DNA of 64,000 nucleotides. It comes from an uncultured Ruminococcus sp. (GTDB lineage Bacteria; Bacillota; Clostridia; Oscillospirales; Ruminococcaceae). The stretch lies in assembly GCA_946413815.1 (NCBI GenBank), contig CAMKMD010000001.1:110460-174459 (forward strand), in the 5' to 3' direction. The notes under the pieces are model-generated. The model did not search any database. It saw only the letters and a program-made list of their open reading frames with translations, and was not told the DNA's origin. Below are positions 32,558 through 64,000 of the stretch, piece after piece (the stretch's first letter is position 1; each line of letters opens with the position of its first letter). The position numbers were made by a program, and so were the translations under genes.

Positions 32558-32588
32558 AAGACCCGGAGGGATGACCTCCGGGTCTTTC
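32558..32588 (+). terminator. rho-independent terminator after GH9 cellulase
   Basis: AAGACCCGGAGG-GATGA-CCTCCGGGTCTTTC. Confidence 0.7.
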
Positions 32589-32615
32589 AGCTTGTCATAA
32601 ATCCTATATCTATTA

Positions 32616-32798
32616 AGAGGACGCCCTCTCTTGCGGGGCGTCCCCTCTTCAAAAACAGTCCACCGGACTGTTTTTGAATTCACCTCTTGCGGGGCGCTTT
32701 GCGGCTATATGTGGGGCTTTGCCCCACACCCCACAAGGGCTTTCAGCCCTTGACCTGACCAAAGGGGCGTGCCCCTTTGGAATCCCAAGCGTTTGGTT
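32616..32798. repeat. modular hairpin-array intergenic repeat, copy 1
   Basis: GGACGCCC..GGGCGTCC; AAAAACAGTCCaccGGACTGTTTTT; GTGGGGCtttGCCCCAC; CAAGGGCTttcAGCCCTTG; CCAAAGGGGCgtGCCCCTTTGG-AATCCCAAGCGTTTGG. Confidence 0.85.
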
Positions 32799-32876
32799 TT
32801 AACGATGAAACTGCCTTTTTGACAGACTGCCAAACCAGGATGGATAACCTCCGGGTCTTTCTTTTATATGATACAG

Positions 32877-40419: not shown

Positions 40420-40478
40420 ATCTGCAAAAGGTGTTTCAGAAGAAAAGTTTCAATCTTTCAAACAACCATAGTTATATA

Positions 40479-40653
40479 AGGGGACGCCTTCACTTGCAAG
40501 GCGTCCCCTCTTCCAAAACAGTCCCCCGGACTGTTTTGGAATTCACCCCTTGCGAAGCGCCCTGCGGATAAATGCGGGACTCTGTCCCGCACCCTGCCAG
40601 AGGCGCTGCCTCTGGACTCCGCTAAAGGGGCAAAGCCCCTTTAGAATCCCAAA
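40479..40653. repeat. modular hairpin-array intergenic repeat, copy 2
   Basis: GGGGACGCCTT..AAGGCGTCCCC; CAAAACAGTCCcccGGACTGTTTTG; TGCGGGACtctGTCCCGCA; CCAGAGGCgctGCCTCTGG; AAAGGGGCaaaGCCCCTTT-AGAATCCCAAACTG. Confidence 0.85.
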
Positions 40654-40676
40654 CTGATTACAAGCATACTTTTCAT

Positions 40677-41743: not shown

Positions 41744-41871
41744 GTTAACGTACCTCCAAATAAAAAATTTACGGTATAATTATATCACATCCTGCATTAT
41801 TTTTCAATACCCGTAGCAATAATTTTTCCCACCCTCTGTATTTGCTCTTATGGTACCTCTGACAGATCCGT

Positions 41872-42040
41872 ATTGAGGGCTCTGCCCTCAAACTCCCGCC
41901 AAAGGGACTCGTCCCTTTGGAATCCCGCTGCAAAATCCCATCTCCCCATGAATGGGGAGATGGGATTTTGAAATGAGAGTCCAGAGAGGCGGAGCCTCTT
42001 TGGCAGGGGCGTGGGGGCAGCGCCCCCACTATTGATCCAC
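41872..42040. repeat. modular hairpin-array intergenic repeat, copy 3 (two opposed half-arrays around a 40-bp palindrome)
   Basis: TTGAGGGCtctGCCCTCAA; AAAGGGACtcGTCCCTTTGGAATCCC; CAAAATCCCATCTCCCCAT-GA-ATGGGGAGATGGGATTTTG; GAGAGGCggaGCCTCT; GTGGGGGCagcGCCCCCAC. Confidence 0.85.
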
Positions 42041-42173
42041 CGGAGATACCACATAAAAGTATATGCTGAGGCGGAAAAAGTGTTGTAACCTATTGACCTT
42101 TTTTAGATAATAGTGTAAAATAAACAGTAAAGAGATATACAATCCAACTATACTTATTTTATAGGGGAGCAAA

Positions 42174-63666: not shown

Positions 63667-63763
63667 TGCATCTGCGGATACCACGGATGACATCTCCTGC
63701 ACACTGTTCAGCGCGGCTATAAGCTGCGCTCAGCTTGTCAAAAAAGGTGGTTTCAGCGATAAT

Positions 63764-64000
63764 ACCAAACGTTTGGGATTCCAAAGGGGCACGCCCCTTT
63801 GGTAAGGTCAAGGGCTGAAAGCCCTTGTGGGGTAACTCCCCACAGTGTGGGGAGATGTCAGCGAAGCTGACAGAGGGGACGGGCCGGTTAGGCTGGGGCA
63901 AAGCCCCACATATAGCCGCCAGGCGCCCCGCAAGGGGTGAATTCAAAAAACAGTCCGGGGGACTGTTTTTGAAGAGGGGACGCCCTGCAAGAGAGGGCGT
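63764..64000. repeat. modular hairpin-array intergenic repeat, copy 4 (opposite orientation to copy 1; runs off the window)
   Basis: CCAAACGTTTGG-GATT-CCAAAGGGGCacGCCCCTTTGG; CAAGGGCTgaaAGCCCTTG; CTCCCCACAgTGTGGGGAG; TGTCAGCgaaGCTGACA; TGGGGCaaaGCCCCA; AAAAACAGTCCgggGGACTGTTTTT. Confidence 0.85.

Follow-up and report, generated by a model that had tools for sequence, protein, structure and literature searches.

The hairpin array that we analysed in a 64,000-nucleotide stretch of DNA from an uncultured Ruminococcus (the window) very probably forms the body of a MITE, a non-autonomous transposable element that has been moved to terminator hairpins. We conclude that it represents a new family of MITEs that target terminators; their ends are of the IS1182 type, and the hairpin array that makes up their body is old and conserved in structure. 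We hold this firmly as far as the mobile-element reading goes. Copy 1 of the array is one of more than 40 in the 4.2-Mb draft genome, a lower bound with many copies lying at contig ends; the genome was placed in the R. flavefaciens group by way of relatives found through the neighbouring pta gene. Hairpin-targeting mobilisation had been among the explanations offered in a first-pass annotation of the window. For the element as a whole it is strongly supported by the IS1182-type ends, the insertion at the base of a terminator hairpin and the duplication of the whole hairpin; the hairpin that is targeted, however, is the host terminator, and an inner hairpin of an array was the target in a single observed case.

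The mobile unit of copy 1 is 242 bp long and MITE-like (window positions 32588-32829, plus strand), with inverted CAG...CTG terminal ends, a hairpin duplication on both sides and no transposase gene. The earlier limits of 32616-32798 were thus too tight. The left terminal repeat, CAGCTTGTCATAAA (32588-32601, plus strand), differs by one mismatch from CAGYYTGTCAAAAA and aligns with those of other copies, and the right terminal repeat (32816-32829, minus strand) reads CAGTCTGTCAAAAA on the minus strand, an exact match. At the target site the left copy of the duplicated terminator stem-loop (32561-32587) forms a 27-bp direct repeat, identical at 24 of 27 positions to the right copy (32834-32860), which runs into a T-tract. 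Between the ends lies the 178-bp core (32613-32790, plus strand; covariance model match of 200.8 bits), in which five strong hairpins and a small one follow each other in a fixed order. These are H1 (32616-32646), with a conserved loop around CTCTTGC; H2 (32648-32678), with a 14-bp stem in which one pair takes all four Watson-Crick types across copies; the small H2b (32689-32697; GCG NNN CGC), which lies within a conserved linker and has 93% of its cells paired and no two-sided changes; H3 (32710-32728); H4 (32734-32752), which occurs in two alternative sequence types; and H5 (32759-32780), followed by a conserved GGAATCCC. The element folds far more strongly than its shuffled versions (z = -7.35). 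Hairpins H1-H5 sit where they had been placed before (32616-32780), the linkers are conserved as had been described, and the element contains no gene, as had also been noted; mechanically called open reading frames overlap copy 4 only.

Four copies had been claimed in the window. When scored with a covariance model built from 38 copies, copies 1, 2 and 4 proved strong (200.8, 206.5 and 125 bits), and copy 3 was reduced to a degenerate remnant (31.8 bits). Copy 2 (40476-40654, plus strand) has a complete core; no terminal repeat was recognised, and CAGYYTGTCAAAAA-type ends were not seen in its flanks. Copy 3 (41872-41930, plus strand; model match 41789-41930) consists of an H3-like and an H5-like hairpin and is adjoined by an inverted degenerate fragment (41971-42094, minus strand; 25.6 bits). 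A terminator-like hairpin (AAAATCCCATCTCCCCAT...ATGGGGAGATGGGATTTT; 41910-41991) lies between these two inverted array remnants. Copy 4 is a MITE cut by the contig end (63731-64000, minus strand; model match 63778-64000), and a terminator-like hairpin adjoins it at 63710-63730 (locus L023 in our analysis of hairpins at element ends). Between its H3 and H4 lies an extra module of about 60 bp with CTGTCAGCTTCGCTGACAT and CTCCCCACACTGTGGGGAG (about 63834-63893), which was also observed at loci L010, L017, L025, L026 and L030. The module stands at H3 in some arrays and, in L013, lies inverted inside the H2b linker; it is a smaller mobile module nested inside the array.

The ends of the MITE, CAGYYTGTCAAAAA…TTTTTGACARRCTG, agree with the ends of insertion sequences (ISs) of the IS1182 family in other Ruminococcus species. 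The first-pass annotation had named a match between the array and an IS end as something that would refute it, and such a match does in effect exist, by way of the flanks outside its limits. When the copies were aligned together with their flanks, they displayed near-identical inverted ends (CAGTCTGTCAAAAAACC... / ...TTTTTTGACAAGCTG), and directly outside these a GC-rich stem-loop is duplicated in direct orientation, with a different sequence at each locus. The genome contains 87 exact CAGYYTGTCAAAAA sites as against none for a reversed-pattern control, and 79+74 end sites when at most one mismatch is allowed as against 7+3 in the control. The same ends enclose other bodies as well, namely MITE types of 151 bp and 187 bp in this genome and of about 140 and 200 bp in genome G045. 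The family of about 151 bp (L054, L068, L258, L259 and L284; for example L258:299-449) carries a different body (GGGGCGATGTAGGCATCGCCCC ... GGGCGGATGCCCACATCCGCCC) and likewise displays whole-hairpin duplications. In G045 we also observed three head-to-tail units of about 211 bp (L184:1171-1620), each of which starts at a terminator-like hairpin followed by CAGCTTGTCAAAAAAGC. At four further loci (L158, L162, L165 and L170) the core stands directly 3' of the hairpin of another repeat, of the GTAGGGGCGGAT...ATCCGCCCG type, and its own ends are absent.

Target choice was assessed at 111 distinct ends in this genome. A strong hairpin finishes at the CAG in 88% of them, mostly with zero gap, as compared with 1.2% of random window positions that score equally high; a palindrome or stem-loop target has been reported for some members of the IS1182 family. 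In 18 two-ended elements with a readable duplication, among them three complete IS1182 ISs of about 1.5 kb and MITE types with other bodies, the target-site duplication of 18-38 bp tracks the length of the hairpin (r = 0.91). The two lengths are equal or nearly so in most of these elements, and the hairpin differs from locus to locus. Similar hairpin duplications were found in other species (20-28 bp at L152, L153, L169, L172 and L173) and in another genus (23 bp at L343). At the 3' end of uvrA (L009) the site is occupied in this genome by an array between two hairpins; the relatives shown lack the array, and several of them have only one terminator, just after the stop codon, a comparison made between species with different terminator sequences and not between strains. 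The pta loci of relatives yielded no terminal-repeat pairs with duplications. Among 50 copies with clear open reading frames on both sides, the flanking genes are codirectional in 30 cases, convergent in 17 and only rarely (three) divergent, and the codirectional cases divide into 13 arrays that run along the genes and 17 that run against them. The hairpins of the array can themselves serve as landing sites, and one such case was seen: at L038 (1784-1868 and flank) a terminal repeat of the copy-1 MITE family adjoins H1 of another array.

Other Ruminococcus species possess elements that combine these ends with a transposase. Their transposases score above the NCBIfam IS1182 cut-off of 270 bits, and their ends (CAGnCTGTC[G/A]AAAAA) lie mostly at hairpins. 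In three complete ISs the CAGnCTGTC ends lie at hairpins and the transposase scores 357-400 bits: L222 is 1538 bp long with a hairpin duplication of 28 bp, L223 is 1512 bp long with one of 38 bp, and L226 is 1537 bp long with one of 23 bp. Together with L219, these are the proposed autonomous partners, with an IS1182-type transposase composed of Pfam DUF772 and DDE_Tnp_1_6. The ISs of genome G010 have exact CAGCCTGTCAAAAA ends and stand after terminator hairpins. A second IS1182 subgroup, with CAGTTTGTCAACAG near the end, was observed in G088, G107 and G112 (L227, L228 and L229), and its transposase match falls into two pieces in one frame. The IS1202 family makes duplications of 24-29 bp; it was the first family that we considered, and it was dropped once the ends led to IS1182 transposases.

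Several points weigh against this explanation. The MITE and the IS1182 ISs have their ends in common and not their internal sequence, and in some copies, copy 2 of the window among them, the core has no recognisable ends. No such IS was found in the MITE's own draft genome, where four tests, one of them a protein query that lacked a positive control genome, detected neither an IS1182 transposase nor a PF13751 domain. The mobiliser is thus either missing from the draft or not assembled in it; a MITE does not strictly need an autonomous partner in its own genome. The probable link between the MITE and the IS1182 family therefore rests on common ends and a common, unusual target behaviour, and not on a transposase of the same genome.

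What the sequences show is the ends of the MITE, its insertion point and the hairpin-sized duplications, and that genuine IS1182 elements of the genus have the same ends and make the same target choice. We propose that an IS1182 transposase moved the copies. An IS1182-family DDE transposase most likely recognises the MITE ends (CAGYYTGTCAAAAA), and the same enzyme probably recognises the target stem-loop, which is usually an intrinsic terminator. On each strand, a 3' end of the element would then be joined to the hairpin's 5' foot, and the whole stem-loop would be duplicated by repair. This strand-transfer geometry is a proposal; its product is visible in the sequences. Along the plus strand, the left hairpin leads into CAGTCTGTCAAAA and lacks a T-run, and the right hairpin keeps the original T-run. 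Termination would shift to the right terminator copy, and the array would join the 3' end of the transcript. Since the T-tract is lost from the upstream terminator copy and kept in the downstream one, insertion probably extends the transcript at its 3' end and does not abolish termination, which would make the site a safe one.

The element belongs to gut and rumen Ruminococcus and its relatives, and its core is widespread. Of 120 Ruminococcus genomes, 69 carry the core, and with the covariance model it was detected in 24 of the 149 genomes, from 21 of the 124 genera, that were sampled across the family. The best matches across genera are alike in hairpin order, loops and linkers. Standard pairs make up 97.5% of the stem cells in the 38 copies, and 23 of 55 pairs, in 197 cells, exhibit two-sided change, as compared with 0-22 cells when the partner column was slid by one to three positions. 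Across genera, H1 and H2 alone have 14 of 29 pairs with two-sided change (47 cells). The pairing-preserving change reported in the first-pass annotation is therefore real and strong, and the core has the covarying base pairs expected of a structured RNA. Of its examples of compensation, those drawn from H4 (CAAGGGCT...AGCCCTTG / CCAGAGGC...GCCTCTGG) were overstated; H4 swaps between two alternative whole hairpins, which should be discounted to one event. The array had no Rfam match, either at the gathering threshold or at E <= 1, and to that extent it indeed belongs to no named family. Phage records gave no matches to the array, and plasmid records gave only short, partial Bacillus matches to H3-H4.

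The same annotation held that such change implies either selection on structure, as RNA or as cruciform DNA, or a hairpin-targeting mobilisation mechanism. The covariation of the inner stems is confirmed, yet it does not imply that an RNA is under selection, since G-U intermediates are nearly absent, the arrays have no preferred orientation to genes (13 versus 17) and the same pattern can arise from template switching in DNA replication. We think it quite unlikely that the core works as a structured RNA, be it a small RNA or a 3'-UTR module, that was spread by chance on a MITE. The strong covariation, the loops and linkers conserved across genera and the hairpin order fixed across the family would fit such an RNA. 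However, G-T pairs make up only 13 of 2088 stem cells (0.6%), as against 8 G-U in 100 pairs (8%) counted from the alignment of the RNase P RNA of the same window; no orientation bias relative to codirectional genes was found (13 versus 17); and Rfam has no match. On the plus strand, moreover, A-C mismatches outnumber G-T pairs (33 versus 13, or 25 versus 6 with one copy per genome), so an RNA would need to be read from the minus strand, a comparison with few independent events. The asymmetry had been considered as a strand indicator and was dropped because the independent events were too few. Together, the rarity of wobble pairs and the lack of strand preference relative to genes make a cause at the level of DNA, either a hairpin in the DNA or repair by template switching, more likely than an RNA of the host.

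What this cause might be can be stated only tentatively. Template switching at palindromes, in which one arm is copied from the other, could by itself account for most of the covariation with little structural selection, a reading that is possible and that we would not call probable. Two-sided changes (197 cells) far exceed wobble or mismatched cells (66), and template switching has been reported to create and maintain hairpins and has been proposed to act in RNA genes by copying one arm onto the other (PMC8794818). It leaves unexplained, however, the conserved loops and linkers (CTCTTGC, TTCACCCCTTGCGGAGCGC) and the hairpin order across genera, and inversion of the loop, a possible by-product, was clearly seen only once (H2 of L164, GGT for ACC). 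The conservation of loops and linkers across genera argues against mutation as the sole cause. The reading to which we lean, at about the same odds and as the weakest part of our account, is that perfect pairing with drifting sequence reflects a DNA hairpin or cruciform that the element needs in order to move, with template switching helping to correct the arms against each other. In a similarly tentative vein, the array may be a working part of the transposon, with the DNA hairpins, or RNA read from them, required by a structure-reading IS1182-type transposase. If so, the element family would recognise structure at both donor and target, and the shape of the array, but not its stem sequences, would have been kept across some twenty genera.

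Two further readings concern the origin of the array. It is rather unlikely to have grown as one separate hairpin module after another inserted, each on the previous hairpin. The terminal repeat that adjoins H1 of another array at L038, the module of about 60 bp that several copies have between H3 and H4 and that lies inverted within the H2b linker of L013, and the cores that directly follow the hairpin of another repeat in some species (L158, L162, L165 and L170) all point that way. Against it, the order of the six hairpins is the same across genera, which indicates that the core was inherited as a unit. Membership in the REP/BIME class, moved by a RAYT (Y1 HUH) transposase, is highly improbable. 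Like REP, REPIN and BIME sequences, the array is palindromic, intergenic and present in many copies, and the repeats are short and lie at the 3' ends of genes, but the long inverted ends, hairpin-sized target duplications and IS1182-type ends are features of a DDE element. To our knowledge, REP, REPIN and BIME sequences have neither terminal inverted repeats nor target duplications of the MITE kind.

The closest known systems are IS1272 and TnSha1 of staphylococci (PMC5678879, PMC4923244), which are alike in having the IS1182-family DDE transposase found here in the proposed autonomous partners and in targeting stem-loops, often intrinsic terminators, with no sequence consensus. IS1272 inserts into terminator hairpins, deletes the hairpin and makes no duplication (PMC4923244, PMC5678879). 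Such stem-loop replacement was considered for our elements and was not found; here the whole stem-loop is duplicated instead. In further contrast to IS1272, the MITE studied here lacks a transposase and has a hairpin array as its body. As an untested alternative, a pathway has been drawn for IS1272 in which the strands are joined at the 5' feet of the stem-loop, so that the hairpin would be duplicated in full (PMC5678879); its product is the one seen in these Ruminococcus elements. The pneumococcal BOX, RUP and SPRITE repeats are similarly small, intergenic, non-autonomous and strongly folded, and BOX is modular, but they differ in ends, target and host, and the part of the source consulted does not describe for BOX the family-wide conservation with pair-by-pair covariation that we found here (PMC3049150). 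Palindromes also serve as landing sites for the ISs that insert into REP sequences (PMC1525189) and for IS1111 in QMITE2 (PMC10969869); these recognise a particular repeat, whereas the elements described here insert at terminator stem-loops of unrelated sequence.

With their many natural copies, the elements provide data on a mode of DDE transposition whose duplication takes its size from the target hairpin and not from the transposase. Duplication of a whole stem-loop had previously only been drawn, hypothetically, for IS1272. The array also serves as a warning case, since textbook covariation is found here with no sign of a host RNA; covariation alone is not proof of a functional RNA. Finally, the results illustrate how mobile DNA can settle at the ends of genes with a terminator retained.
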